In this document: positions 1 to 22,195 of the stretch, piece by piece
How the letters are laid out: every line of letters starts with the position of its first letter
Numbering within the stretch: the first letter of the stretch is position 1
Assembly (NCBI GenBank): GCA_018812485.1
Contig: JAHJDO010000130.1
Coordinates: forward strand, 1 to 33,493
Source of the DNA: a bacterium
GTDB lineage: Bacteria; JAHJDO01
Length of the DNA stretch: 33,493 nucleotides
Direction: 5' to 3'
Notes under the pieces: generated by a model
What the model was told of the DNA's origin: nothing
The model's input: only the letters and a program-made list of their open reading frames with translations
The model's database searches: none
Made by a program: the position numbers and the translations under genes

Positions 1-1
1 A

Positions 2-46
2 GTATATAAATTAAAAGAAGTTAACTTCAAGAAAAGTAGGAGGTAA
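2..46 (+). CDS. Possible 3' end of a truncated CDS at the window edge
   Basis: An open frame enters from the left edge and stops at TAA 44-46, giving the tail VYKLKEVNFKKSRR. It resembles, in a loose way, the tail of the small ORF at the other end of the window (YTKLKDEEINL). Only 14 codons are visible, so this may be chance. A 12-bp palindrome GAAGTTAACTTC lies at 17-28. Confidence 0.2.
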   Translation, partial: VYKLKEVNFKKSRR

Positions 47-125
47 ATTAAAAGACTATGGCGACAAAAGGTAAAACAAAACGAAATGCAATAAAACAAA
101 TAAATTGACATATAACACAAAATAC

Positions 126-154
126 TTGACATTAAATACAATATGTAGTATAAT
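126..154 (+). promoter_or_regulatory. Consensus sigma-70 promoter of the retron RNA
   Basis: TTGACA at 126-131, a 17-bp spacer, and TATAAT at 149-154 form a perfect consensus promoter. A second TTGACA lies at 105-110. Transcription should start near 161, immediately before the first hairpin of the structured leader. This promoter is of a different class from the TGTCTAA/GTTATAT promoters used from 6.36 kb onward. Confidence 0.8.
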
Positions 155-160
155 ATATAT

Positions 161-578
161 GATGGCCAACGATATATATGTGTTGGGAATGATCTTTGAT
201 AATCCTCTGAATTAGACGATAGTTATAATGATTGAAATTTAATTTTCAATCAACCGGTGAAATACGGTACTTTTGGCATGCAAATGCCGCAAAGGTGTGA
301 AAGCATCTTTGCTGTTTTACGAAGACAGCAACACTGACCCTTGTTTACACTATAAACACATTGTTAACTAAGCAATACAGCAATGAGGCAAGTATAACAA
401 AGTTCAATTGCTAAAAGCCTTTTATGTTAAACATAATGGTTTAACTAATAGAATTATGTTCTAGATTATTAAAGGGCTATTTAAAGAAAGTAGGGTTTAG
501 ATTCAGTATCCTTCCTTAAGAGTACTATCGGCTAAGGGCTCCGTGTAGTAAAATGCAGTGTAAGCTGCAAATCTTAGC
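161..578 (+). ncRNA. Structured leader RNA, candidate retron msr-msd
   Basis: No convincing protein is encoded between the promoter and the ORF at 599, but hairpins follow one another: 166-170/182-186, 230-237/244-251 (8 bp), 253-256/265-268, 275-279/284-288, 289-294/307-312, 342-347/353-358. A three-way junction is closed by 416-424/470-478 and holds hairpins 426-432/439-445 and 449-453/459-463. A long-range helix 212-223/524-535 (11 of 12 pairs) could be the a1/a2 stem that closes a retron RNA. It competes with a local hairpin 531-536/573-578 next to the ribosome binding site of the following ORF. The retron identity rests mainly on the RT gene downstream; I could not place the branching guanosine or the msd stem with confidence. 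Confidence 0.55.
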
Positions 579-598
579 GGGAAAGGAGGACTTAGACT

Positions 599-808
599 AT
601 GAGAAAATCTCATAAGTTATTAAGATCACTTGTTGTCAAGCTTAAGACAATGAGAAATTCAGGGATGCTGAATGGTCCTAATGAACGTTGTTTATGTGCT
701 CGGATAGAAGCAATAGCGCATGCGATATCTATTAGTGATAAGAAGCGTATGCTAGCAGAGATGGATAGATTAGCTGCTGATATCTTGAGTATTGTGAATG
801 GTGAGTAA
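599..808 (+). CDS. Small protein of unknown function in the retron locus
   Basis: 69 aa, preceded by a strong Shine-Dalgarno sequence (AAAGGAGG) at the end of the structured RNA. The product is basic at the N-terminus and helical, with the segment CLCARIEAIAHAISI in the middle. I do not recognise a family. Its place between the candidate ncRNA and the XRE gene suggests it belongs to the retron operon, perhaps as an accessory or effector, but that is inference. Confidence 0.6.
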   Translation: MRKSHKLLRSLVVKLKTMRNSGMLNGPNERCLCARIEAIAHAISISDKKRMLAEMDRLAADILSIVNGE

Positions 809-850
809 TTAGGACGCCTTACTTTTTTTTCAATTATAGGATTAATATAT

Positions 851-1123
851 ATGGGATCTGATTACGGTAAAGCTATACGAATAGTAAGATCAATAAAAGG
901 TATTACTCAGACAGAGTTGTGCAAAAGAGTAAAACCTAGAGAGATGGACAGCAGTTATTTGTCGAGGTTGGAGCAGGATGGTAAAATGAATCCTTCTCTT
1001 AAAACAATTAAAAAGATTGCTGAGGCTTTAGATATTCCTGTAAATGTACTTCATATGCTGGCATCCAGTAAAAGGGATCTAAAGGAAATAGGAAAAATAC
1101 TTATACAAGTCTCAGACGAGTAA
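851..1123 (+). CDS. XRE-family helix-turn-helix protein of the retron operon
   Basis: 90 aa. Residues about 7-66 form a Cro/C1-type HTH: IRIVRSIKGITQTELCKRV is the first two helices, SSYLSRLEQD the recognition helix, and IKKIAEALDIPVNVL the closing helices. The C-terminal 20 residues are extra. The stop codon lies 8 bp before the start of the reverse transcriptase gene, so the two are almost certainly co-transcribed. HTH proteins are known partners in one of the described retron classes; whether this one is a repressor, an antitoxin-like partner or an effector cannot be read from sequence. No good Shine-Dalgarno precedes the ATG. Confidence 0.85.
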   Translation: MGSDYGKAIRIVRSIKGITQTELCKRVKPREMDSSYLSRLEQDGKMNPSLKTIKKIAEALDIPVNVLHMLASSKRDLKEIGKILIQVSDE

Positions 1124-1131
1124 ATGGGAAA

Positions 1132-2151
1132 ATGACCAATGTAAAAAAATATAACCTAAAGTCCTCGAAAGCGCCGTTAATGTCAAGAAGAAAAATTGAG
1201 TCGTTGTTAGGGGAAAAAATAGAATATTTAGAGCATGTAGCAAGTAAAGTGGGGAATTATTACAAACCATTCGATATATACACACCTGGTAAAAAACCAA
1301 GACATATTGACAATCCAAATAGCGATCTAAAAAAGATACAAAAAAAAATTAAAAGCAGGGTGCTTGAGACAGTAATACTACCTGAAACAATGATGGGTGG
1401 TATAAAAGATAAATCACATAAAGATAATGCGTTACGGCATATCGATAAAAAGGTCGTAATTACCCTGGATCTGAAATCATATTTTCCTAAAACAAATAAC
1501 AGAAATATATATGATGTGTTTATAAATGTATTCGGGTGCAACAGAGAAACTGCGCATCTGTTTACTAAGCTTACATCATATCAAAGAAGGTTACCTCAAG
1601 GGGCTCCTTCAAGTACGTTACTGGCTAACATGTGTGTGCTGCCAATGCATAATGATTTACAAGAATTGTTTAACAGAAACGATATAACTTGGACATTTTA
1701 TATTGATGATATAGCGTTTTCCGGTGACAATGCAGATAAGGTTATAGATGAGGCAATAAAAATTATACAAAACCATGGCCAGGGGGTAAGCTGCAAGAAA
1801 AAGAAAATAATGTATGCTAATAATCGGCAAATGGTCACTAAGTTGTGTGTAAATAGGAAAGTTGGTATAAAAAAAGAAAAAATAAACAAGATTAGAGAAG
1901 ATATTATAAACCTGTCATGGCAACCGAATATCGATAACAGGAAGTTACAGGCAATAAAAGGAAGTATTAACTATGTAAAGAGCATATGTGCGGTCAGAGG
2001 GCAATCATTAGATAACTTATATAAAAAGATGTTGCCAGCTAAGACAGGTTTAATAGGTAAAAAGCCGAAGATAAAAACAACGTCATGCAAATGTTCAAAA
2101 AAACACAGAGAATATGTAAAAGGTGTAAGGAATATCAGTAATAAGGAATAA
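1132..2151 (+). CDS. Retron-type reverse transcriptase
   Basis: 339 aa, the usual length of retron RTs. Visible motifs in order: the retron-specific NAxxH motif (NALRH, residues 99-103); the first catalytic aspartate in ITLDLKSYF (D113); LPQGAPSS (154-161); the catalytic box FYIDDIAFSG with YIDD at 190-193; and the position of the retron VTG motif, here VTKL at 235-238, so the glycine is replaced by lysine. In known retrons these proteins copy part of an upstream ncRNA into multicopy single-stranded DNA bound to RNA, and most studied ones act in anti-phage defence. The gene follows an XRE gene after 8 bp and a long structured leader. A group II intron RT or DGR RT is unlikely: there is no maturase domain and no template/variable repeat seen. 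Confidence 0.92.
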   Translation: MTNVKKYNLKSSKAPLMSRRKIESLLGEKIEYLEHVASKVGNYYKPFDIYTPGKKPRHIDNPNSDLKKIQKKIKSRVLETVILPETMMGGIKDKSHKDNALRHIDKKVVITLDLKSYFPKTNNRNIYDVFINVFGCNRETAHLFTKLTSYQRRLPQGAPSSTLLANMCVLPMHNDLQELFNRNDITWTFYIDDIAFSGDNADKVIDEAIKIIQNHGQGVSCKKKKIMYANNRQMVTKLCVNRKVGIKKEKINKIREDIINLSWQPNIDNRKLQAIKGSINYVKSICAVRGQSLDNLYKKMLPAKTGLIGKKPKIKTTSCKCSKKHREYVKGVRNISNKE

Positions 2152-2162
2152 AGTAAACATAT

Positions 2163-2240
2163 TTGCATAGTTTAGGTATAATACTTGCTGCTCTTGGTGT
2201 AAGTTTAATTATTAATAGTTTATTCTTTAAAAAACAATAA
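2163..2240 (+). CDS. Possible 25-aa membrane peptide after the RT gene
   Basis: A TTG-initiated frame 11 bp after the RT stop reads MHSLGIILAALGVSLIINSL followed by FFKKQ, a single hydrophobic helix with a lysine-containing end. An AAGGAA sequence overlaps the RT stop codon. Small transmembrane proteins are effectors in some retrons. The start codon is weak and the frame is short, so I treat it as a candidate only. Confidence 0.25.
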   Translation: MHSLGIILAALGVSLIINSLFFKKQ

Positions 2241-2398
2241 AAACATAAAGACAATAAAGCAACATATAACAAATCACTACAGCGGAATTTACCTCCGGCA
2301 AATCAGGGTATTACCAAGAATCGTGTAAAAATGTGACTTAACGGTTCGAAAAACTACCTGTTTTATCGAACTTTAGTTAGCGAATTAAACATTACTTA

Positions 2399-3235
2399 TT
2401 AAATCCGCCCCAGTATCTTAATATATCTAAACAATATATAATCGTCAAACAGGCGATATATTCTACCTGCCTTATCAATGTCCTCAATATATTCGTGAGG
2501 GAAATCTTCCGTAGGTGTTTCATTAAGGGAAAAAACATAGAAAATAGTCTTCATGTTTTCTTCGTCTAATGTCGATTTTACAACCCTGTCCCACCTTTTT
2601 TTAATTTGTGGCTCTGCTGTAAATATAAAAACACTTGAAAAGTGACAGTTTGATGCTCCGGCCGTTGTAGAAATATATCTGTCTATTGTTTTTTGTATTC
2701 TTGCAGATTCTTTTATTGTATTTTCAAATTCAATCGCAATGGGCATAAAGTGGTTCCATGTTTCAGAATCAAAGCTTTTCATTAATACTGCATCTGGCCG
2801 AAAATCCAAATCTAGCCCGTCCCAAAACATTCTTAATATTCTCTCTGATAGCCAAACACAACTCTTAAAGTTTTTTTCGATATTAAGTCTAATATTTGTA
2901 AGGTCTATATAGTGATCAATGGTTGAAGCTGCAACAGGAAAATCCTTAACCGAAAATACAATATCTTCTGAAAAGGGAAATGGAAGATTTTGATATAAAA
3001 ACCTAATTCCTTCCCTGGTAATTTTATAATAATTAAAGTACCTAGTTAAAACTTTGGTTAGAAGATTTTTATTTACAAGTTTTCGCAAGACAACATATAT
3101 ATCATCATGTTTTACTTGTAATAAAGCCTTAGCATTTTGGGCAGTAATATATCTTTGTTCAAAAGTATACAAGAGAAGTTTTCGAATTCTCTTTTCCCCC
3201 AATTCTCTCTTAGTATTTTCTCTTTTTTTAATCAT
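2399..3235 (-). CDS. Replication-relaxation (Replic_Relax/MobC-like) family protein
   Basis: 278 aa on the minus strand, the only convincing minus-strand gene. Residues about 15-80 look like a winged helix (RKLLLYTFEQRYITAQNAKA, then the wing region and the KITREGIRFL segment). The second half has the family's typical RPDAVL segment and an acidic core IAIEFENTIKESARIQKTI followed by DRY, the pattern of the 'E-L-(E/D)...K...RY' nuclease-like fold of Replic_Relax proteins. Members are found on plasmids and conjugative elements and are linked with replication relaxation or mobilisation; the exact biochemical role is not established. It faces away from the 2-kb gene-free region, which fits a gene placed beside an origin. 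The assignment is from motif memory, so moderate confidence. Confidence 0.65.
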   Translation of the reverse strand: MIKKRENTKRELGEKRIRKLLLYTFEQRYITAQNAKALLQVKHDDIYVVLRKLVNKNLLTKVLTRYFNYYKITREGIRFLYQNLPFPFSEDIVFSVKDFPVAASTIDHYIDLTNIRLNIEKNFKSCVWLSERILRMFWDGLDLDFRPDAVLMKSFDSETWNHFMPIAIEFENTIKESARIQKTIDRYISTTAGASNCHFSSVFIFTAEPQIKKRWDRVVKSTLDEENMKTIFYVFSLNETPTEDFPHEYIEDIDKAGRIYRLFDDYILFRYIKILGRI

Positions 3236-3248
3236 AGTGATAATTTGT

Positions 3249-3289
3249 TTTATATCCTAGTTTGTATCCTAGTGGGACTAGAAAGTCAA
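3249..3289 (-). promoter_or_regulatory. Promoter and direct-repeat operator of the minus-strand gene
   Basis: On the minus strand TTGACT (3284-3289) and TACAAA (3261-3266) are 17 bp apart. Two copies of TATCCTAGT (plus strand 3253-3261 and 3265-3273), 12 bp apart, overlap the -10 region, which suggests binding of a regulator, perhaps the winged-helix product itself. Confidence 0.45.
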
Positions 3290-3620
3290 GCTCTTTTTTA
3301 AGTGTGAATATATGTCCCCATAACTCTTTATAAGATAGAGACTTACAAATCTACACTAATAGAGTTTCCGCAGCCTCTGCCTGCCAACACTAACCCTACT
3401 ATCACCTTACCACATTTTATTTATTAACATTACCCAAAATGCTTTATAAAATTTTATATTATCCTACTTATTACTCGGCTTAATTTTATCTATCTTTTAA
3501 CTATATTTGGTTTAAAATATTGAGTTTAATGTTAAGGAGTTTTTGCTTGTAGGTTTGTATTGTTTTATAATCTAATTTAGTAACTAGAATCTTGTTATTT
3601 ATATTCAAAAGGCCACGTTT
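3290..3620. other. Gene-free AT-rich stretch, nothing recognised
   Basis: I see no supportable gene, repeat or strong hairpin here. Short open frames exist on the minus strand but lack a ribosome binding site and continue through the hairpin repeats that follow. Confidence 0.4.
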
Positions 3621-3645
3621 TGCGCACGCATAAGTTCCGTGCGCA
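3621..3645. repeat. Hairpin repeat, copy 1
   Basis: Stem TGCGCACG/CGTGCGCA (8 bp) with the 9-nt loop CATAAGTTC. The central 21 bp (3623-3643) recur exactly at 3845-3865. Confidence 0.75.
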
Positions 3646-3779
3646 TTTGTGGTGAGGGCGTTAGAGCAACGTTCGGGGTGAAGGCATACTTTTACGGTAT
3701 GCAATGTATTATGGAGCATTAAGCAACCTTATGTTATTTTCCCACGTTTGAACAAGTCGAACACGTCTAACAAGCATTA

Positions 3780-3792
3780 CAGGCCTTGCCTG
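3780..3792. repeat. CAGG-N5-CCTG mini-hairpin 1
   Basis: CAGGCCTTGCCTG. One of five inverted repeats with a constant 5-nt centre between 3.78 and 6.18 kb. Confidence 0.55.
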
Positions 3793-3844
3793 TTTGAACA
3801 GGTGTAACAAGCTGAATAAGTCAGGACCTGTCTTGCCTTTTTTT

Positions 3845-3865
3845 CGCACGCATAAGTTCCGTGCG
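3845..3865. repeat. Hairpin repeat, copy 2
   Basis: Identical over 21 bp to 3623-3643: stem CGCACG/CGTGCG around loop CATAAGTTC. The outer two base pairs of copy 1 are not kept, so the conserved unit is the core hairpin. Confidence 0.75.
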
Positions 3866-4064
3866 TAATTGGCACTGAATGCAAAGTTTTATACTAGCTT
3901 GAACCTATCTTAACGCTTTCTACTGTCTTCAACCTGTCGAACAAACTTCGTTTGAACATATTGCCTGTCTGAACCTGTTTTAACCCGTTTTAAATGTGTG
4001 CAACGTAGATTTTTGTCCGTGTACTCATTTGAATCAGCTTAAAGAGGCATATTGCCCGTTTAAA

Positions 4065-4077
4065 CAGGTAATACCTG
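4065..4077. repeat. CAGG-N5-CCTG mini-hairpin 2
   Basis: CAGGTAATACCTG; same architecture as the copies at 3780, 4840, 4982 and 6164. Confidence 0.55.
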
Positions 4078-4253
4078 CACGTTCTACATGTGTTGTGATG
4101 TTCTTATAAGCAAACTTCGTTTGAACACGTCTAAAAGGGCTTAGCTGACTTATCCTGTAGTTCTTTTTTTTGCAGTAGTGTGAAGAAGCAACAACATAAG
4201 AAAGAATATAAGAAATTTCATTTCAAGGAATTACCCACCCAACCCCTTCAATC

Positions 4254-4447
4254 GCCGAGAGTTCAGGGATGCATTAATTGTTTTTTACTCAATCTTTATA
4301 AAAAAACAGCTTTAATAAAGATTCAGCAGGGTTTGCTTGATAGACTTTGCCTTTTTCAAAGTCAAAGACTACCACTTCTACCCTAAAGGTTTTCAGGGTA
4401 AAAGAGCGCAAACTAAAAAATAATTAAAAGCTGGAAGAACTCTCGGC
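4254..4447 (+). ncRNA. Candidate structured RNA closed by an 11-bp helix
   Basis: GCCGAGAGTTC (4254-4264) is perfectly complementary to GAACTCTCGGC (4437-4447). Inside lie three independent hairpins: AATCTTTAT/ATAAAGATT (4291-4299/4315-4323), GACTTTG/CAAAGTC (4343-4349/4357-4363) and TACCCT/AGGGTA (4379-4384/4395-4400). Together they make a multibranch fold of about 194 nt. The strand is a guess, since DNA inverted repeats are symmetric. A GTG-initiated open frame crosses the region but does not look like a protein. Confidence 0.5.
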
Positions 4448-4596
4448 TAGGAGCAGATCATATCGGGACCCGACTTTTATATTCCCCCTACCACCCATGT
4501 TTGCCTTTTATAACCCAGGCTTGACTACACAGAGATTTATTACTCATGTTTTAACAAGTAAAATTTTTTTAATGTAAAACATCAGCAAGGTTCGCT

Positions 4597-4640
4597 TGAT
4601 TAGTCCCTTCGGACTATTCCTGGGCCTTCGGGGCTAATCA
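4597..4640. other. Small branched inverted-repeat structure
   Basis: TGATTAG (4597-4603) pairs with CTAATCA (4634-4640) around two mini-hairpins, TCC-CTTC-GGA and CC-TTCG-GG. An alternative fold is TAGTCC/GGACTA (4601-4606/4611-4616). The preceding CAGCAAGGTTCGCTTGAT is a near copy of CAGCAGGGTTTGCTTGAT at about 4324-4341. Function unknown. Confidence 0.35.
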
Positions 4641-4725
4641 CTTCTATTGCTATTATTACTAACAGCAATAAAAGATAGCTCACTAACAAATCTCTGCTTG
4701 TTTCTAAAGAAGAAAGGCAAACATA

Positions 4726-4767
4726 CCCGTCCGTCCCCCAGAGGGGGACTCCACCAACCAACCTCCC
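4726..4767. repeat. CCCGTCC repeat element, copy 1
   Basis: Begins CCCGTCCGTCCCC and holds a 7-bp hairpin GTCCCCC-AGA-GGGGGAC (4733-4749), then AACCAACCTCCC. A closely similar element lies at 9687-9727, just upstream of the structured RNA there. Confidence 0.65.
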
Positions 4768-4839
4768 CAACGGATCACAGCAGAAGACACTCCCAAAGGA
4801 AGCCTTTTTCAAAGGGAATCCTTCTCAAAAAATCTTTTT

Positions 4840-4872
4840 CAGGCAAAGCCTGATGAAACAGCACAAAAAGAA
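4840..4872. repeat. CAGG-N5-CCTG mini-hairpin 3 with shared tail
   Basis: CAGGCAAAGCCTG (4840-4852) is followed by ACAGCACAAAAAGAA (4858-4872). The same 15 nt follow another hairpin at 18039-18074. Confidence 0.55.
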
Positions 4873-4939
4873 CTTTGAGCAAATAGACGTCCTGCAGATA
4901 CAATATAGCTAAAGAAAAAGTCTATAGAGAAAGCCGTTA

Positions 4940-4965
4940 TTTAAGAGAGAAAAACCTCTCTTAAA
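4940..4965. other. 10-bp hairpin in the gene-free region
   Basis: TTTAAGAGAG (4940-4949) pairs with CTCTCTTAAA (4956-4965). No T-tract follows, so I do not call it a terminator. Confidence 0.45.
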
Positions 4966-4981
4966 AATCTCTCCATTCTTC

Positions 4982-5027
4982 CAGGCATTACCTGCGAAGG
5001 CTGCACTGGTCTATTTTTTAGTTACTG
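4982..5027 (+). terminator. CAGG-N5-CCTG mini-hairpin 4 and possible terminator
   Basis: CAGGCATTACCTG (4982-4994) is a member of the mini-hairpin family. A wider pairing of CCAGGCA with TGCACTGG is followed by a run of six T (about 5015-5020), so the stretch could end a transcript from the 4.2-4.9 kb region. Confidence 0.35.
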
Positions 5028-5226
5028 ATGCCCCAGCTCCTTTCTTGTTTAACTTAATTTATGAGGTTCTTGTTTATTATTTTCATTGGCAAGCCCCTCC
5101 TGTTTTTGGAACCTGCCCTCTCACCGCCCCGAGTAAGTCAATCCCACCCTTTTTTTTAAAAAAACTTGAAGAATTCTCTAAAGAAGTAACTGCATAAAAT
5201 TTGTGAACATAAAACCCCGCCTAACA

Positions 5227-5256
5227 GTAACGCATTTCGCAAGCGAAATACGTTAC
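5227..5256. other. Long hairpin upstream of the sigma gene
   Basis: GTAACGCATTTCGC (5227-5240) pairs with GCGAAATACGTTAC (5243-5256), 13 of 14 bp, around a 2-nt centre. It is nearly a perfect palindrome, which fits a protein-binding site or an extruding cruciform better than a terminator. The remaining 4.87-5.44 kb is gene-free and otherwise unremarkable. Confidence 0.5.
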
Positions 5257-5441
5257 GATACTGCGAGATTTATCCTTCCAAAATTTTGAACTTTTTTTAA
5301 CCTGTTTGTCCCAAACCTAAAAAATGGCAGGAGTGACTGTCTATCTTGCTTACAACTCTATGGTCCAAAATTGCTCAATCAAACTTTAGTGGTGTGGGGC
5401 TTTTTGTGAAGAGGGCAGAACCACAAAAAAAGGAGGAACTC

Positions 5442-6149
5442 ATGAAAACAAAGAGCAAACAAGAACTAAAAAAGTCGAAAACAAAAAAGGAGAAGAAGAT
5501 GCAAACTAAAAAACAGCCCAGTGGAAAAGGGCAGGTCGAAAAAGCAGTCAATAATAACAAGAAAGGGGAAAAGATGAACAAGACACAAGACAAAAAACAG
5601 TTGGTTGACCTTGAATCTGCATTGAAAGGAATTGCAGTCAAATTAACAAGAGACGATTTATTACAAGATGAACTTGTACAAGAGGGACTTATTGCCATAT
5701 GGACTAAGCAAAAGAGAGACGGTAACTATAACGAGGCATATCTCAGACAGCATGCAAAGCATCGTATGTTTAATTATCTAAAATTAGGAAGTAGTTTAGA
5801 TAATGGATTTCGTGAGATTACACAGATTGACCTTGTAAATGCTAATACAGGCGAAACCGTCGATTTACCACATCCTGAAAGCTTTATGCACAGAATATAT
5901 GCAAGAGACCTGAAAAGTCTTATAAATAAGCATACATCGGGCATAACAAACATGATTTTTCATATGTTTTGTGATGGATATGATGAAAACGAGATTGCAG
6001 GGAAACTTAAAATCTCTCAAAAAAATGTTAGCCGTGAAAGAGAAGTTGTTCAAGACCTTGTGAAAAAACTTTACGGAAGAGGTAAAGTTGCTTTACGTAA
6101 AGTCAGAGACAAGAGCAATAAAAATCAGCTCATTTTCTGCATTACATAA
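5442..6149 (+). CDS. Sigma-70-family RNA polymerase sigma factor (ECF-like)
   Basis: 235 aa from the ATG at 5442, chosen because AAAGGAGG lies 6-8 bp upstream; a longer frame from 5346 has no such site. After a lysine-rich tail of about 50 residues, a region-2-like domain shows DLLQDELVQEGLIAIW (the sigma 'DLVQEGxxxLW' core) and AYLRQHAKHRMFNYLK. The C-terminal part has a region-4 helix-turn-helix, DGYDENEIAGKLKISQKNVS with RERE after it. I infer that it directs RNA polymerase to the TGTCTAA/GTTATAT promoters, the first of which starts 208 bp past its stop. Its own promoter does not show that motif. Two further in-frame ATGs (5500, 5574) are each preceded by purine-rich ribosome-site-like sequence and could give shorter forms. 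It could instead be a phage-type transcription regulator with a sigma-like fold. Confidence 0.8.
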   Translation: MKTKSKQELKKSKTKKEKKMQTKKQPSGKGQVEKAVNNNKKGEKMNKTQDKKQLVDLESALKGIAVKLTRDDLLQDELVQEGLIAIWTKQKRDGNYNEAYLRQHAKHRMFNYLKLGSSLDNGFREITQIDLVNANTGETVDLPHPESFMHRIYARDLKSLINKHTSGITNMIFHMFCDGYDENEIAGKLKISQKNVSREREVVQDLVKKLYGRGKVALRKVRDKSNKNQLIFCIT

Positions 6150-6163
6150 TTTAGTTGCTTTAA

Positions 6164-6213
6164 CAGGTATCACCTGAAAAAGATCCCTTGCTTTCGCAAG
6201 GGGTCTTTTTTTT
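6164..6213 (+). terminator. Rho-independent terminator after the sigma gene
   Basis: GATCCCTTGC (6182-6191) pairs with GCAAGGGGTC (6196-6205) over 10 bp, followed by eight T. It is preceded by CAGGTATCACCTG (6164-6176), mini-hairpin 5 of the CAGG-N5-CCTG family. It separates the sigma gene from the first promoter of the regulon. Confidence 0.9.
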
Positions 6214-6266
6214 GCCCTTGTGTAGCGAGGTTTTGGCAAAAAGGGTCGAAGGAAAATTTGAAACTG

Positions 6267-6291
6267 CTATTTTTTCTATGAGAAAAAATAG
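6267..6291. other. A/T-rich 10-bp hairpin upstream of promoter 1
   Basis: CTATTTTTTC (6267-6276) pairs with GAAAAAATAG (6282-6291). On the minus strand it would be T-rich; it may be a bidirectional terminator or an operator. Confidence 0.4.
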
Positions 6292-6356
6292 AATGGAAGG
6301 GCATGTTACTAATAGTTAAATTACGCCATGCCAACGCTGGATATCGAAAAATGCTC

Positions 6357-6386
6357 TGTCTAAATAGCTTATTTTTACTGTTATAT
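6357..6386 (+). promoter_or_regulatory. Element promoter 1 (TGTCTAA-N16-GTTATAT)
   Basis: TGTCTAA 6357-6363 and GTTATAT 6380-6386, followed by ATATAGAG. Serves the DUF2958-RadC group. First of 16 copies. Confidence 0.8.
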
Positions 6387-6421
6387 ATATAGAGAAGCAA
6401 ACAACATGGGAGAAAGTAAAA

Positions 6422-6727
6422 ATGAAGTTATTGACTGAGGAAATTAAAAATAAGTTTCCGGAAATATATGCAAATGAGAATAAAAAACCAGAGGATATTC
6501 CTGTTATCTGTAAATTTTTTGACCCGACAGGCTCATGGGCTTGGTATGCAACGGAATTTGACGGGATAGATACTTTTTTTGGCTGGGTGCATGGATATTT
6601 TCCTGAATTAGGAACTTTCTCATTGAGAGAGTTGCAGAGTGTAAAGTTTTCGTTTGGGTTGGGAATTGAAAGAGACCTGCATTTCGGAAAACATACTCTG
6701 GCGGAAGTTATGGAAAAGAGACTATAA
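6422..6727 (+). CDS. DUF2958 family protein
   Basis: 101 aa. The whole length fits DUF2958: an N-terminal LLTEEIKNKFPEIYANE, then CKFFDPTGSWAWYATEFDG, FFGWVHGYFPELGTFSLREL, and the C-terminal GLGIERDLHF. The family is common on plasmids and conjugative elements, often beside radC, ardC and large methylase-helicase genes, as here. Its biochemical role is unknown. It is the first gene behind element promoter 1, with GGGAG a short way before the ATG. Confidence 0.85.
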   Translation: MKLLTEEIKNKFPEIYANENKKPEDIPVICKFFDPTGSWAWYATEFDGIDTFFGWVHGYFPELGTFSLRELQSVKFSFGLGIERDLHFGKHTLAEVMEKRL

Positions 6728-11754: not shown

Positions 11755-12045
11755 ATGGAAAAGACACTTGATGCAAGTATAAGTCTTCAGGTTAAAGACT
11801 TGAATCACTTAAAAACGTTAATACCAACTAAAACTGGTATATTTGCCGTAGCATTGAATTATGGGGTAAGGTCAACAAAGATTATTGCATACCATAAAGA
11901 GGTAGACAAATTTTATATTAGAAACCTTATAGACGAAAGCGAACAGTGTTTGAGTAGTGTCGAGATAATGGATAGTCAAAATACTATTATTGGAGACGCA
12001 ATCGAAAAAGGAGCTTTGTGGTTTGAGGAATATGTTGGCGAATAA
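11755..12045 (+). CDS. Hypothetical protein, 96 aa
   Basis: Preceded by GGGAG. Alternating strand pattern (TGIFAVALNYGVRSTKIIAY, HKEVDKFYIRNLID) suggests a small beta-rich domain. No family recognised. Shares promoter 7 with the next ORF. Confidence 0.7.
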   Translation: MEKTLDASISLQVKDLNHLKTLIPTKTGIFAVALNYGVRSTKIIAYHKEVDKFYIRNLIDESEQCLSSVEIMDSQNTIIGDAIEKGALWFEEYVGE

Positions 12046-12077
12046 AAGCTTGAGACTTTTATAAGAGGAGGAAAAGA

Positions 12078-12260
12078 ATGGGGGCTATATATAAAGTGTT
12101 AGAACTTGAAGGCAAACTTAGACAGTGTAAGGCAAAGAATTCGAGATGCAATACACAGATTAAAAAACTTAAAGAAAAAATAGAAAAATATAATAATTAT
12201 CTTGAGTTTACAGGTTGCAAGTCGGATTTTAATGATTATGTTGGAACAACAAGCTTATAA
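12078..12260 (+). CDS. Small coiled-coil protein, 60 aa
   Basis: AGAGGAGG ribosome site. Residues 5-45 form a charged helix (VLELEGKLRQCKAKNSRCNT, QIKKLKEKIEKYNN), probably a coiled coil, with two cysteines inside. Unknown function. Confidence 0.65.
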   Translation: MGAIYKVLELEGKLRQCKAKNSRCNTQIKKLKEKIEKYNNYLEFTGCKSDFNDYVGTTSL

Positions 12261-12276
12261 ACTGCTAATCAATGAC

Positions 12277-12292
12277 ATGCCTCACAAGGCAT
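12277..12292. other. Short hairpin after the promoter-7 operon
   Basis: ATGCCT-CACA-AGGCAT, 6 bp with a 4-nt loop and no T-tract. Confidence 0.4.
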
Positions 12293-12351
12293 AACCGCAC
12301 TTTCCTAAATTTAAAAAGATATTAAAAATTTCTATAGCCTATCTGGTCTTG

Positions 12352-12381
12352 TGTCTAACTTTGTTAATTTAACGGTTATAT
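12352..12381 (+). promoter_or_regulatory. Element promoter 8
   Basis: TGTCTAA 12352-12358, 16 bp, GTTATAT 12375-12381 (preceded by CG rather than CT), then GTATAGAG. Drives the operon that contains the hammerhead ribozyme. Confidence 0.8.
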
Positions 12382-12413
12382 GTATAGAGGTAAAACAAAA
12401 AGGAGTAAAAGCT

Positions 12414-12560
12414 ATGAGACATCAAAAGAACACGCTGGCACGAAAGAAAGTCATGCACAAGGATACCTTCAATCCGAAGGCAAAATCAAAGTATGCTAAG
12501 AAAAAAGTTCTGCAAAACAGGGGAATATATTTGATCAATTCTCCATTCTACGCTGGATAG
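12414..12560 (+). CDS. Small basic protein upstream of the hammerhead
   Basis: 48 aa from the ATG at 12414, preceded by AAGGAG; the open frame extends further left to 12351 but that part is the promoter. The product is strongly basic (HQKNTLARKKVMHKDTFNPK, then KSKYAKKKVLQNR), as in a small nucleic-acid-binding protein. Its last codons form one strand of stem I of the ribozyme. No family recognised. Confidence 0.65.
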   Translation: MRHQKNTLARKKVMHKDTFNPKAKSKYAKKKVLQNRGIYLINSPFYAG

Positions 12561-12628
12561 TCTAACTGATGAGGCCTGAATAGCCGAAACACCTTCGGGC
12601 GTCTTAGATAATAATAAAATAGGATGAG
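12541..12628 (+). ncRNA. Type I hammerhead ribozyme
   Basis: All core positions are present: CTGATGA (12566-12572), GAAA (12586-12589) and the cleavage triplet GTC (12601-12603), with cleavage expected after C12603. Stem II is GGC/GCC (12573-12575/12583-12585) with a 7-nt loop. Stem III is A89-U602, C90-G601, then an A-C mismatch, C92-G599 and C93-G598 (12589-12593/12598-12602) capped by TTCG. Stem I is TCTAA/TTAGA (12561-12565/12604-12608) and, beyond an internal loop, CATTCTA (12544-12550) with TAGGATG (12620-12626). The internal loop in stem I is what type I hammerheads use for loop-loop contact. The A-C mismatch in stem III is the one weakness. It lies between the first and second genes of the promoter-8 operon. 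Confidence 0.83.
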
Positions 12629-12636
12629 AATTTACA

Positions 12637-12846
12637 ATGTATGAAGAACAAGCGAAGCAATTTGCAATGACTGATTTGGGCTTAACAGAAGATGAGGCAG
12701 AGCAGGCGGTTGCAGACTTTTTGCCTGTAATTGATGGGGATTATTGTCAAGATTGCGGTTGCGAATTAATAGACGGAAAGAATTGTCAGGATAGTATTGA
12801 TGATGATTATTGCAATGACTGTTGGGCTAAGTATAAAAACAAATAA
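12637..12846 (+). CDS. Zinc-ribbon-like small protein
   Basis: 69 aa. The N-terminus is an acidic helical part (TDLGLTEDEAEQAVADFL); the C-terminal half has CQDCGCELIDGKNC and DDDYCNDCW, two CxxC knuckles about 20 residues apart, as in a zinc ribbon. Its AGGA ribosome site candidate (12621-12624) is paired inside stem I of the hammerhead, so the ribozyme may affect its translation. Confidence 0.7.
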   Translation: MYEEQAKQFAMTDLGLTEDEAEQAVADFLPVIDGDYCQDCGCELIDGKNCQDSIDDDYCNDCWAKYKNK

Positions 12847-12858
12847 GGGGAAATTGTT

Positions 12859-13011
12859 ATGGGAAAAACAAAGATACATATTTGGGCGCAGATTGGTAAG
12901 GAAATAACTGAGTTGGCGGGAGACATAAAAAAGATGAAAAGGTTATTGGGGTTTCTAAAGTTTCTTAATAATCCTGAACCTTTACTAAAAAACATTAAAA
13001 CGATGGGGTGA
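12859..13011 (+). CDS. Small hypothetical protein, 50 aa
   Basis: AAGGGG precedes the ATG. Amphipathic helices with basic face (IKKMKRLLGFLKFLNNPEPL). The next gene starts 4 bp after its stop. Unknown. Confidence 0.55.
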   Translation: MGKTKIHIWAQIGKEITELAGDIKKMKRLLGFLKFLNNPEPLLKNIKTMG

Positions 13012-13015
13012 ATAA

Positions 13016-13180
13016 ATGCAAGTGGAAACTAGAATAAAAGTATCTTATATAACGACATTAGGAGACCACTTTGATAGTGAAATTTCAGAAAAAGACAGAG
13101 AGGAATTAACAGAACAACACATAAGAGACTATTGCAAAGAATATGCTCTAAATAGAAATGATGTCAAAATTCTAAGTTAG
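13016..13180 (+). CDS. Small acidic hypothetical protein, 54 aa
   Basis: Reads MQVETRIKVSYITTLGDHFD and continues as a charged helix, SEKDREELTEQHIRDYCKE. It follows the previous stop by 4 bp with GGGGTGA as its only ribosome-site-like sequence. Unknown function. Confidence 0.5.
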   Translation: MQVETRIKVSYITTLGDHFDSEISEKDREELTEQHIRDYCKEYALNRNDVKILS

Positions 13181-13214
13181 GGAATAAAACAAATAAAATA
13201 AGAGGGAGAATAAC

Positions 13215-13385
13215 ATGTATATGATACTCAGGTGGCGAGACGACGATAGTTATTTAACGTGTCAAAAAAATAATGATGGCTCTATTATGCTTTTTAAAAC
13301 CCTCAAAGAAGCTGATAAGTATGCTAACGACCATCCTAAAACCAACGATATGAGAGTAATATCAATAGAGGCAGTGAAAGAATAA
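13215..13385 (+). CDS. Small hypothetical protein, 56 aa
   Basis: AGAGGGAG precedes the ATG. Sequence pattern MYMILRWRDDDSYLTCQKN, a strand-turn-strand, then FKTLKEADKYANDHP, a helix, then MRVISIEAV, a strand. Similar small beta-alpha-beta proteins are common on phages and plasmids without known function. Last gene behind promoter 8. Confidence 0.6.
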   Translation: MYMILRWRDDDSYLTCQKNNDGSIMLFKTLKEADKYANDHPKTNDMRVISIEAVKE

Positions 13386-13424
13386 GTTAAGGATGAAATA
13401 CTGGAAGAAGATTTATAAATAAGG

Positions 13425-13454
13425 TGTCTAAGTGGTTTATTGTTGCTGTTATAT
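13425..13454 (+). promoter_or_regulatory. Element promoter 9
   Basis: TGTCTAA 13425-13431, 16 bp, GTTATAT 13448-13454, then AAATAGAA. Confidence 0.8.
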
Positions 13455-13485
13455 AAATAGAAATTAAAAGAAAGGAAGTTTGATT

Positions 13486-13737
13486 ATGTATAAATATCTT
13501 GAAGAAACTTTTGATACATTTTATGAGGCTGTTCAGCAGTATCTAAAGTGGTGGGGTAATGGCGGGGGCTGTTACTCGCTGGAATGTCAGCTTAAGGATG
13601 TTGGTGATGAAAATATTACTAAAAAGGATTGGTTAAAACAGGCAAAAGATTTAATTAATGGATTAGATTATTGTTGCGCAGGTAAAGGAATTATGAGACT
13701 GCTGGATACAATAGATGTTGAAATTGTGGAAATTTGA
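13486..13737 (+). CDS. Hypothetical protein, 83 aa
   Basis: Start at ATG 13486 after AAAGGAAG; a TTG two codons upstream is less likely. Contains the aromatic stretch VQQYLKWWGNGGGCYSLEC and DYCCAGKGIMRLLD. Unknown function. Confidence 0.65.
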   Translation: MYKYLEETFDTFYEAVQQYLKWWGNGGGCYSLECQLKDVGDENITKKDWLKQAKDLINGLDYCCAGKGIMRLLDTIDVEIVEI

Positions 13738-13749
13738 AAGGGAAAGAAA

Positions 13750-13974
13750 ATGAATAATATAAAAAGCCTATTACCATCAGATGTAAGAGTTTTAAGGGCT
13801 ATTAATGCCACTGAAAACTATTTGGTTAATTGTAAGAACAAGCAGAAATTTACTAACTACGGATTGACTATTTATGGGTGTGAAAAAAGAAATTTGGGAG
13901 AATATAAAGAAATGCTTGGAAAAGATAAAAGAAAGTTAAACGGTAGATTGAGGGAGCTATATCTTTCAATATAA
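13750..13974 (+). CDS. Hypothetical protein, 74 aa
   Basis: Basic, with YGLTIYGCEKRNLGEYKEML and a lysine/arginine-rich C-terminal helix. Separated by 12 bp from the previous gene and 14 bp from the next, each with a purine-rich ribosome site. No family recognised. Confidence 0.65.
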   Translation: MNNIKSLLPSDVRVLRAINATENYLVNCKNKQKFTNYGLTIYGCEKRNLGEYKEMLGKDKRKLNGRLRELYLSI

Positions 13975-14602: not shown

Positions 14603-15673
14603 ATGAAAATGACTGTAAAGAAAGAAAATCTAATTGATGCGCTTGCGTATTGTAGCGGAGCTGCAGGTAGCAAAAGGAATACTCTACCCGTTTTGGAATG
14701 CGTAAAGATGTCTGCAAAAGAGGGAAAACTGGAGTGTGTAACAACTGATCTTGAAATAACGCTGGGGAAAAGCGTTGAGTGTGAAGTAGAAAAAGAAGGG
14801 ACTATCCTTGTTTTACACAGAGATTTATTTGGCTTGGTAAAAGAGATTGATGTAGAAATGATCAGCCTTGAAGTAGAGAAAAAAGACACGGAAGAAGAAA
14901 AAGAAAAAACAGGTGTGCTTTTGCTAAAAACCGATAAGGGCAAGTATAGATTGCCGTTAGCAAAGGTTCAGGATTTCCCAAAGATTGAAAAAGTAGAAGC
15001 GAAAACAAGTCTGGAAATAGATATTAAAGAAGTGCTTCAGAAAACTATGTTTGCAGTGTCTAATGATGAAATAAGATATGCTCTAAACGGAGTGTTTTTT
15101 GATGGCGAAAATGCCGTTGCGACAAATGGGATTCGACTATCAGTAATACCCTGTAGTCTAATACCCTGTAGTCTAAGTGAAACAAGCTGTATTGTGCCTA
15201 CAAACGCCTGCAGGGAAATTGCGAAGATTGACGGAAAAGCAGAGGTGCAGATAACAGATAAAAATATCTTATTTAGAAATAATGGATCATATATTAAATC
15301 AAGGTTGGTAGAGGGGAAGTTCCCGGATTACAAGACGATAATTCCAAAAAACGATTGTAAAATAAAAATAAACAGCGAGGAATTGGTAAACGTACTTAAG
15401 AGAATGAAGCTGATCGATGAAAGCGCAGTAGAAATTGCTTTTGGAAAAGACAGTGTTGTATTTAAAAATGGGAAAGAAGGGAAAACAGCTAACGAAGAAA
15501 TGGTTATTAAAAATGAAGAAGAAAAGAAGTTTGCTATAAATCCTGTTTTCTTAATAGAAGTATTGAAAAGAGTAAGCGGAGAGGTTGTTTTTGAATTAGG
15601 GGAAGACGCAAATTCCCCAATTGTAATTAAAAAAGATGATTTTACCCATATCATAATGCCTGTCAAGCTTTGA
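14603..15673 (+). CDS. dnaN: DNA polymerase III beta subunit (sliding clamp)
   Basis: 356 aa, slightly short for a bacterial clamp of about 370. The three clamp domains are visible: the N-terminal MTVKKENLIDALAYCSGAAG...NTLPVLECVKM and VTTDLEI, the middle MFAVSNDEIRYALNGVFFD with ATNGIRLSV, and the C-terminal VNVLKRMKLID ending FTHIIMPVKL (the typical 'MPxRL' end). It encircles DNA and tethers polymerases and repair enzymes. A 15-bp tandem duplication (15146-15175) repeats IPCSL in the second domain. A plasmid-borne clamp implies that the element replaces or redirects the host replisome. GGAG precedes the start. A parS-like palindrome follows 4 bp after the stop. Confidence 0.93.
   Translation: MKMTVKKENLIDALAYCSGAAGSKRNTLPVLECVKMSAKEGKLECVTTDLEITLGKSVECEVEKEGTILVLHRDLFGLVKEIDVEMISLEVEKKDTEEEKEKTGVLLLKTDKGKYRLPLAKVQDFPKIEKVEAKTSLEIDIKEVLQKTMFAVSNDEIRYALNGVFFDGENAVATNGIRLSVIPCSLIPCSLSETSCIVPTNACREIAKIDGKAEVQITDKNILFRNNGSYIKSRLVEGKFPDYKTIIPKNDCKIKINSEELVNVLKRMKLIDESAVEIAFGKDSVVFKNGKEGKTANEEMVIKNEEEKKFAINPVFLIEVLKRVSGEVVFELGEDANSPIVIKKDDFTHIIMPVKL
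15146..15175 (+). repeat. 15-bp tandem duplication within dnaN
   Basis: ATACCCTGTAGTCTA occurs twice in tandem and encodes IPCSLIPCSL. It keeps the frame and looks like a recent slippage event. Confidence 0.9.
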
Positions 15674-18742: not shown

Positions 18743-21700
18743 ATGAGTGATTTGGCTGTATTAGAAAAAGAAAGTTTTACTGATGATGATTTGGGCTTTT
18801 CAGGAAGAAAGGCAAATAAAAATGTTGCCAGCTTTCATCTACTGGGAAAAAGTAAACATCAGCAGTACTTTACATCTTTAGGCTTGTCAGAGGCGATTTT
18901 CAAAGGGCTGTTGCCGGCTATTGATGAAGACAAAATTGAAAAAGTAAAAGTTCTAGATCCTACTTGTGGTTCGGGAAGATTGCTGGTTCCATGGAATAAG
19001 GCAGGAGCCAAAGTAATAGGCATAGAACTGGACAAAGAGGCTGGCACAGTAGCAAGAAGATTAATCGGCAAACAGAATGTAAGAATAGGGGACTTGCTGG
19101 ATTATAAAAGCCTTATTCGAAGTAATTTTGATGTTGTTGTTACTAATCCGCCTTTTGGCATTTATTGGGATATAGAGGGGAAAAACATTTCTTTCAATAC
19201 GGGCTGTTACGGCAATTCTATTGAAAGCCAATCAGCAACGCTTGAAATTGCAATAAACGCTTTAGACTCTCCGGGGCTTTTGGCAGCAATAGTGCCGAGT
19301 TCTATGTTTGAGAATCAAAAAGATAAGAAAATAAGAGACTATTTGTTCGAGCATTTAAACTTTCTATTAAAAGCAACGATAAGCAATAGCTTTAAGGCTG
19401 AATATGGGATTGATGTCAAGGTTGATCTCTTAATAGCCAAAAGAGAGTATCAATACGGCAATGAAAATGTGAACGATTGCAGAAAGGTTGAAGTAGATGT
19501 TAAGGAAAAACACTGGAAAGAGTATTTAATCGGACAAATACAAGGAGTGATAGGGGAGCGAGATATTAAAATAAATAACCCATACTCAGATAAAATTGAA
19601 ATACCATTTATAGAGAATGTAAAACCGATAGAAACCTCAAATAGATTAAGTATCACAAAAAGAGGGATAACAACTGATAATGCAAGCGCAGGAGCCCTGG
19701 GCGCTTTTTGCAATAAAGTATTAGAGGATTATTCGCCGGTTCTAGGTACCAATACGGGCATTCTTGATGCTTATGTATCAAAACCAGCTTTATTTGTGAG
19801 AGGAATTGACGAGGGAGAGGGAATTTTAAAACGGCTGGGATTTAATGTAGAGATAAAAAAGACTGATAGATTGCAAATTGCGAAAGAAAAAAAGAAATAC
19901 GATTTTTTAACAACACCAATTTACAGGCCGGAAGTACATCAGCTTTTAGGTTACTACTTAAACAAAGAATACAGGGCAAAAGAAACGATCAAGGACAAAG
20001 ACGGGAACGTAATATTTTTAAAAGATAAGAAATACAAGCTCTGGCCGGAATGGAAAAGAAACAAGGAATTAGTTAAGGTTGAGGGCGCCAGGGACAGTAA
20101 GGGAAAAGAATATAGTATAAAAACAGAACTTGACAGAGGATATCTGGCAATCTCTGTTGATACGGAACAGGGCAAAAGGACTTATAATGAGATAAACAAA
20201 GAAGAAATTAGCGAGTTTATAAAAGCATTCTCTCTTCCGGACATCCAGGATATAGAGGGGAAATACAGTAAACAATTAGAGGGCAATAAAAAGAAATTAG
20301 AAAAACAGGCGCCGTTCTTATTTGAATATCAAAAAGAGGATATAGCGCGCCTGGGTCTAAAGCCTTTCGGGTATCTTGGATATGATATGGGCGGCGGCAA
20401 GACAATATCTGCTGCAGCCTGGGCAAAATTAAGAGGATATAAACGGTGTTTAGTGGTTTGTCAAAGTTCGTTAGTGAGTAATTGGAAGAATGAGCTTGAA
20501 AAATTTGACTATAAAGTAATCAGGTTAATGACGCACAGAACAATAGACAAGCTCATAGCGGAAAAAAGAGCGGGAATAAAGCAGGAAGAAACAACTTTTT
20601 ATATTACAAGTTACGAATTTCTGTCTCTTGATACAAAAAGAGAATATGATCCGTGGGATTGCCTCGAATACGATAACGATGGGGATGTATACAGAGAGAC
20701 AAGGGGAATAACCTCTCATGTATGCCCTGATTGTCATAAAAAGTTCGCTGCAAAGATAAAGGAATGTCCAAAATGCAAAGAAGATGTTCTGTGGACAGGC
20801 AACGTTTGCAATAAGTGCGGATATGTTGCTTATTCTTACACGCCAGAACACAGAAGCTATCCGGCATATAAGCGGATAATAAAACTTTTTGAGGCAGTGA
20901 TTGTTGACGAGGCGCAGATGGCAAAAACAAAGAATTCAGGCAGAGGAAAAGCGGTCAGGGCATTAAAAAGCAAAGGAAAGCTAATTTTAACAGGTACGTT
21001 GATGAAAGGGTATATAACAGACATATTCTGGAATATAGGCTGGACTTTGGGATTTGATAATCCGTTATTCTATTATAAATATCGGGGCGGATCTAAAAAG
21101 TTTTTAAACGAATTCGGCACTTTTAAATTTGTAACCAAGCAGTTTGAAGATACGCTATCAGAGGGCAGAGCTAAAATAATTCCCGAGGTGAGCAATCTAA
21201 ACAGGTTTTGGCGGATAATGGCTCCTTTTATGGTCCGGCGGTTAAAAGACGAAATGGTGGAATTGCCGGAAAAGAATAAAAAGATTATTTTTCTGGATAT
21301 GGATAGAGAGCATGAGAACTTATACGGCGCGTTTGAAGAATGGGCCAGGGAGAGAATAAGAAAGGCTATGCTTATGGCAGGCGACGAGAAAGAGGTAAAT
21401 ATTGGCAAAATATCCGGTGCGTTATGGAAGCTGAGATTTGCGGCTACGGTCCCAACTGCTAAAAATTATCTTTTAGACGAAAGAGGACCAAATATGGTTT
21501 TGCCTGAATGGAGCAGCTGGAATAAGGTTGACAAGATTATTGAACTTGTAAAGGAAATTAAAAGAAAAGGGGAGAAGTGTATTATCTTTTCCGGATTACG
21601 GCCAATGGTGTCAGAAATCACAAAGAGGCTAAGAAGAGATTACATAAGACATATGGCAATATTAGCAAGTCACAGTACAAGCAAAAGGTTTGATATGATT

Positions 21701-22195
21701 CAGGACTTTGCTAACGACGAGGATAGTGTTGCGATTGTAGCAGGGTTAAACGTTTTAAATAGGGGATTCAATATTACGTGCGCAAATAATGTGATTATTG
21801 CAGATCTGGAATATAGCCCTGAAAGCACATTGCAAGCAGAGGATAGAGCGCACAGAACTGGCCAGGACAAGCCGGTGAATGTTTACTATCTTTTATCAAA
21901 GGGAACGATTGACGAGGATATGTTTGAAATAATAAGCAAAAAACAAGCAGCAATAGAAAATGCCATTGACGGAAAGGCGGTACATGCAGACGTTGCAAAG
22001 TTGCTTGAAAATGCAGGGGACGTTCGATTGAAGATTGCAAAGAGGCTTTTAGAAAAACCAAAAGCAATAAAAATCAAGGTTGCTGAAAAAATAGATGTAA
22101 CTGTTAAAGAGGAAAGGATTGAAGAAGAAGCAGAGAAAGAGGTTTTTATTGTGACAGGTGGTAAGCAAATGAGCTTCGGGTTTGCAAATGTCTAA
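18743..22195 (+). CDS. N6-adenine methylase fused to SNF2-type helicase (DarB-like)
   Basis: 1150 aa. N-terminal methylase: SAM motif I LDPTCGSGRLL (residues about 71-81) and catalytic TNPPFG (134-139). The helicase follows: FEYQKEDIARLGLKPFGYLG, Walker A DMGGGKT (about 549-555), a zinc-ribbon insertion with CPDCHKKF, CPKCKED and CNKCGY (about 660-695), Walker B VDEAQ (about 722), LTGTLM, and motif VI QAEDRAHRTGQ (about 1031). No nuclease domain is seen, unlike type ISP restriction enzymes. The methylase-helicase order recalls phage P1 DarB, which protects DNA from type I restriction, but this protein is about half as long. Together with the ArdC-like protein it suggests anti-restriction; a restriction or other defence role is the alternative. 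Alone behind promoter 14, and ends NV with the stop in promoter 15. Confidence 0.85.
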   Translation: MSDLAVLEKESFTDDDLGFSGRKANKNVASFHLLGKSKHQQYFTSLGLSEAIFKGLLPAIDEDKIEKVKVLDPTCGSGRLLVPWNKAGAKVIGIELDKEAGTVARRLIGKQNVRIGDLLDYKSLIRSNFDVVVTNPPFGIYWDIEGKNISFNTGCYGNSIESQSATLEIAINALDSPGLLAAIVPSSMFENQKDKKIRDYLFEHLNFLLKATISNSFKAEYGIDVKVDLLIAKREYQYGNENVNDCRKVEVDVKEKHWKEYLIGQIQGVIGERDIKINNPYSDKIEIPFIENVKPIETSNRLSITKRGITTDNASAGALGAFCNKVLEDYSPVLGTNTGILDAYVSKPALFVRGIDEGEGILKRLGFNVEIKKTDRLQIAKEKKKYDFLTTPIYRPEVHQLLGYYLNKEYRAKETIKDKDGNVIFLKDKKYKLWPEWKRNKELVKVEGARDSKGKEYSIKTELDRGYLAISVDTEQGKRTYNEINKEEISEFIKAFSLPDIQDIEGKYSKQLEGNKKKLEKQAPFLFEYQKEDIARLGLKPFGYLGYDMGGGKTISAAAWAKLRGYKRCLVVCQSSLVSNWKNELEKFDYKVIRLMTHRTIDKLIAEKRAGIKQEETTFYITSYEFLSLDTKREYDPWDCLEYDNDGDVYRETRGITSHVCPDCHKKFAAKIKECPKCKEDVLWTGNVCNKCGYVAYSYTPEHRSYPAYKRIIKLFEAVIVDEAQMAKTKNSGRGKAVRALKSKGKLILTGTLMKGYITDIFWNIGWTLGFDNPLFYYKYRGGSKKFLNEFGTFKFVTKQFEDTLSEGRAKIIPEVSNLNRFWRIMAPFMVRRLKDEMVELPEKNKKIIFLDMDREHENLYGAFEEWARERIRKAMLMAGDEKEVNIGKISGALWKLRFAATVPTAKNYLLDERGPNMVLPEWSSWNKVDKIIELVKEIKRKGEKCIIFSGLRPMVSEITKRLRRDYIRHMAILASHSTSKRFDMIQDFANDEDSVAIVAGLNVLNRGFNITCANNVIIADLEYSPESTLQAEDRAHRTGQDKPVNVYYLLSKGTIDEDMFEIISKKQAAIENAIDGKAVHADVAKLLENAGDVRLKIAKRLLEKPKAIKIKVAEKIDVTVKEERIEEEAEKEVFIVTGGKQMSFGFANV

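Follow-up and report, generated by a model that had tools for sequence, protein, structure and literature searches.

A divergent and probably weakened type I hammerhead between two small genes of a bacterial mobile element

Results

The window analysed here covers 33,493 nt of contig JAHJDO010000130.1 from the bacterial lineage JAHJDO01. Its genes include those for ArdC, RadC, a reverse transcriptase, a beta-clamp, a methyltransferase-SNF2 protein, UvrD and ParA/ParB, and the contig is therefore a mobile element, be it a plasmid, an integrative element or a phage-plasmid. The reverse transcriptase gene (1132-2151, + strand) matches RVT_1 (E 1.9e-15) and PHROG 2825; no obvious template/variable repeat pair was seen in a repeat search of positions 1-6500. 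Two 32-nt direct repeats (3618-3649 and 3840-3871) are 91% alike, each with a GCGCAC/GTGCG palindrome-like sequence. The clamp gene (14603-15673, + strand) encodes a complete DNA polymerase III beta-clamp homologue, with ~85% DNA identity in a related element of the congener G001. N6 DNA methyltransferase and SNF2/helicase domains are combined in a 1150-aa protein (18743-22195, + strand), which also weakly resembles DarB-like antirestriction proteins. Within the UvrD gene, 31226-31321 (+ strand) matches Rfam family n00280, a C. difficile sRNA in a helicase gene, at 53.5 bits; protein-coding similarity is the likeliest cause.

Between two small ORFs of this element lies a motif with the layout of a type I hammerhead (Table 1). 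The upstream ORF had no match in Pfam or PHROG. Searches of the + strand at 12240-12414 for a sigma-70-like promoter and of 12000-13800 for a terminator found none.

Table 1. Features of the hammerhead locus (positions in the window)
Feature	Position	Strand	Basis or remark
Upstream small basic ORF, 48 aa	12414-12560	+	Translation
Possible outer stem I	12537-12542 and 12544-12550 with 12620-12632	+	Covers AGGA 12621-12624
Type I hammerhead	12559-12611	+	R1 model, RF00163, comparison with 45 phage copies
Conserved A before stem I	A12559		
Stem I	12560-12565 with 12604-12609		
Stem I wobble	G12560•U12609		
Core CUGAUGA (DNA CTGATGA)	12566-12572		
Stem II	12573-12576 with 12582-12585		
Stem II mismatch	C12576•A12582	+	Paired in 121/122 pattern-matched viral copies among the matches listed
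Competing helix	12574-12580 with 12594-12600	+	7 pairs; excludes stems II and III
GAA	12586-12588		
Stem III	12589-12593 with 12598-12602		UUCG loop
A15.1-U16.1 pair	A12589-U12602		
Stem III mismatch	A12591•C12600	+	Paired in 45/45 same-length phage copies
C17	C12603		
Expected cut	Between C12603 and U12604		Predicted
Conserved AA after stem I	12610-12611		
Downstream small ORF, 69 aa, zinc-ribbon-like	12637-12846	+	Translation; paired CxxC motifs

The set of core residues (C3 U4 G5 A6 N7 G8 A9, G12 A13 A14, the A15.1-U16.1 pair and H17) is complete at 12566-12572, 12586-12589, U12602 and C12603. Core-adjoining pairs are possible in all three stems (A12565-U12604, G12573-C12585 and A12589-U12602), and the closing pairs of the UUCG loop of stem III are intact. 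The original prediction had placed a hammerhead here, and its core, cleavage site and coordinates agree with the sequence.

Of 150 dinucleotide-shuffled versions of the window, 5 also held a match to a lax descriptor of the motif, and we therefore trained a covariance model, R1, on 44 independent type I copies taken from viral contigs. R1 scored the window copy at 58.5 bits (E=4e-14 in the 33,493-nt window), with a runner-up of 14.8 bits. In the whole 2.68-Mb genome it was the sole strong copy (E=3.2e-12); a second match, on contig C137 (21.7 bits, E=0.13), was taken as chance. In the comparison with Rfam that had been proposed, RF00163 matches at the locus and nowhere else in the 2.68-Mb genome (24 bits, E=0.0021), but below its 34-bit cutoff. 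This cutoff is an unfair test here, because nearly all intact phage copies tested miss it; across six phage loci rich in intact hammerheads, only one match reached it.

A degenerate stem II pattern retrieved at least 120 stretches from IMG/VR, and the descriptor identified, among the matches listed, 199 type I hammerheads in 128 sequences, the window copy among them. Full pairing among these copies is partly selected, since stem II of the window copy itself supplied the fetching pattern and paired copies are favoured by the descriptor. Positions outside the pattern also match the phage copies, namely A12559, G12560, GUC and the AA at 12610-12611, and the C-G pair adjoining A-U in stem III is likewise common to both. 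Judged by its sequence, the motif is a type I hammerhead homologous to the phage copies. This homology supports the prediction of an intergenic hammerhead for which a cut after C12603 is expected.

With the type I hammerheads of phages and prophages (RF00163; PMC3088659) the window copy shares the core, type I topology, stem lengths of 6/4/5, a UNAAU loop II, the A before and AA after stem I, and an intergenic position. It differs from them in its two A•C mispairs, its G•U wobble, a strongly favoured alternative fold and its sub-cutoff Rfam score. R1 also detected unannotated members in Pelagibacter phages HTVC019P and HTVC131P and Flavobacterium phage elemoB_14-3B (48-52 bits). These have the same core, stem II and loop, conserved A/AA and place among small early-type genes, whereas their stems are better paired and their neighbouring genes unrelated. 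HHphage of haloviruses HF1/HF2 also lies just 5' of a start codon in a phage operon, but is a structural variant, 13 nt before a helicase gene and at the 5' end of a mapped transcript (PMC3088659). Viral contigs L119, L126, L054 and L106 each carry several type I hammerheads in series; L119 has about ten, or almost one for each small gene.

Prophage hammerheads that flank genes have already been described, in a study that showed self-cleavage for several of them and proposed processing into single-gene mRNAs (Perreault et al. 2011, PMC3088659); a later paper describes the reason for these gene associations as still unknown (PMC10085705). In the window, the upstream ORF ends in a TAG (12558-12560; offset -8 from the core) that runs into the beginning of stem I, and the downstream ATG lies 33 nt past the cut. 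Among the matches listed, 184 distinct type I copies were compared with 1180 points chosen at random in the contigs that carry them: a start codon preceded by a Shine-Dalgarno (SD) sequence follows within 50 nt of the cut in 98 copies, and is similarly placed at 147 random points. An SD-preceded start together with a stop within 10 nt of stem I is found in 76/184 of these copies and at 13/1180 control points. Note that the window copy is counted in both 184 and 76, and that the set contains some mutually related copies. For the longest ORF upstream, the usual end positions are +1 (the core's own TGA), -3 (TAA), -9 (TAA) and -8 (TAG), so that the window TAG occupies one of the four commonest registers. 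Overlap of the stop with stem I is partly built in, because the core itself contains UGA; the enrichment of start codons is not. An upstream stop at stem I with a ribosome site just after the ribozyme is the standard arrangement of the phage family. Since the TAG at -8 and the ATG 33 nt after the cut fit the family pattern, the gene context, which had been called unusual, is the norm.

We next compared pairing and folding with natural intact relatives. The A•C mispair of stem III had been noted as the only mismatch; a second A•C lies in stem II. Among the matches listed, 109 of 122 pattern-matched viral copies are mismatch-free and 6 of 122 have two or more mismatches. The window copy, with a single mispair in stem II and another in stem III, can be set beside the filter of Perreault et al. 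2011, which allowed no multiple mispairs in short stems; candidates rejected by this filter but in phage contexts were tested and sometimes active (PMC3088659). In a 66-nt frame the predicted energies are -6.8 kcal/mol for the hammerhead fold and -14.9 kcal/mol for the best fold; the resulting gap of 8.1 kcal/mol compares with 0 to 2.4 kcal/mol in 45 phage copies of the same length. Note that stability near the best fold, from which the window copy departs by this gap, is not a formal criterion of the family.

The pair probabilities of stems II and III in the window copy were ~0 in four frames, and its core-pair probability was among the lowest three of 183 copies (viral median 0.81). The competing helix was the minimum-energy fold in every frame tried, with a pair probability of 0.97-0.999, and already prevailed in nascent chains that reach only to 12601, when the 3' strand of stem I has yet to be transcribed. 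Given the three changes that weaken pairing, the window copy is most likely to fold mainly into the competing hairpin and would cleave slowly or not at all. Unlike the 45 same-length phage copies it strongly favours another fold, so that efficient cleavage appears doubtful. These energies describe secondary structure only and ignore Mg2+, tertiary contacts and fast co-transcriptional cleavage; because of this, and since natural hammerheads have been reported that are active despite weak stems II and III (PMC3088659), the window copy may still be active.

An outer extension of stem I over the AGGA had been proposed to set translation of the gene at 12637. Such a stem can be drawn: it has 13 pairs with one bulged C (-11.5 kcal/mol), one strand lies inside the upstream ORF, and it is stronger than 98% of mononucleotide shuffles. 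However, 7% of window positions with the same geometry reach its strength, and among 65 ORF starts it takes rank 5, behind four others with stronger stems. Masking of the ribosome site by the outer stem was rejected as lying within this background. The outer stem is rare among relatives in the family and is not a family feature.

Concerning the history of the locus, searches at the family, order, class and phylum levels all gave the same five genomes. The nearest related element, that of G001, has the gene at 12859 and the clamp region at ~78-87% identity; it carries neither the hammerhead nor the two flanking genes. Viral contigs hold four distant relatives of the zinc-ribbon gene, none of them close to a hammerhead. 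A search for the same locus in phages found none, nor was the zinc-ribbon gene locus found in genome contigs or the upstream-gene locus in viral contigs. The exact stem II sequence was absent from the viral contigs searched, and no close homologue of the window hammerhead was found in the genome and viral searches. Because the G001 element lacks the hammerhead and its flanking genes, and the viral zinc-ribbon relatives have no hammerhead, the ribozyme is, as far as these sequences indicate, an accessory part of a shuffled region of small genes.

Discussion

We read the window copy as a divergent phage-type intercistronic type I hammerhead that is weakened or decaying, with a probability of about 0.62. 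In the family, the motif occupies the gap between two co-directional genes and would cut the polycistronic RNA ~25-30 bases before the next start codon; the downstream mRNA would then begin with a 5'-hydroxyl and retain a short leader together with its ribosome site. The window copy probably arrived as part of a small-gene cassette of the mobile element. Its three pairing-weakening changes would then let the competing hairpin dominate, with slow or no cleavage. Weakening or decay is probable, although all core residues and core-adjoining pairs are intact, which pure decay need not preserve.

An alternative is a fully functional hammerhead, processing the operon mRNA as in other phages with its mismatches tolerated. 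Such a copy might be rescued by co-transcriptional folding and by tertiary contacts between loop II and the A/AA that flank stem I; besides the complete core, the flanking A/AA and the closing pairs of the UUCG loop, known active hammerheads tolerate weak stems (PMC3088659). We consider full function possible but rather unlikely, in view of the energy gap and of a competing helix that wins in nascent chains before stem I can be completed. Far less probable is that the region is a translational-coupling hairpin, in which the ribosome site of the 12637 gene stays covered by the outer stem unless ribosomes on the upstream gene open that stem, with the ribozyme remnant as no more than its loop. 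The duplex over the AGGA, with one strand in the upstream ORF, fits this idea; its strength is matched elsewhere in the window and at other ORF starts, and it does not recur as a feature in relatives. As for chance resemblance, shuffled windows can satisfy the lax descriptor and the RF00163 score is under its cutoff, but the independent R1 model (E=4e-14), which we regard as refuting, and the shared stop, ribozyme and ribosome-site position leave this explanation hardly any weight.

What hammerheads do in bacteria and phages is still given as unknown in the literature (PMC10085705). In the phage family, upstream stops keep to a small number of set positions within stem I or next to it, with the ribosome site after the cut. 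On a speculative and improbable reading, a terminating ribosome would for this reason block folding of the ribozyme, and cleavage, and through it the downstream mRNA, would be tied to upstream translation; the window copy, with its strong competing fold, would cut only if ribosomes or another factor remodel it.

In conclusion, the compact arrangement of stop codon, ribozyme and ribosome site is common in phage type I hammerheads, most of which are missed by the Rfam cutoff, and its frequency makes translation-tied mRNA processing testable in intact phage copies. The window copy is a genuine, though probably weakened, member of this already known and widespread family, standing in the family's normal position: a natural case of such weakening, in a mobile element from a bacterial lineage that has been poorly sampled.
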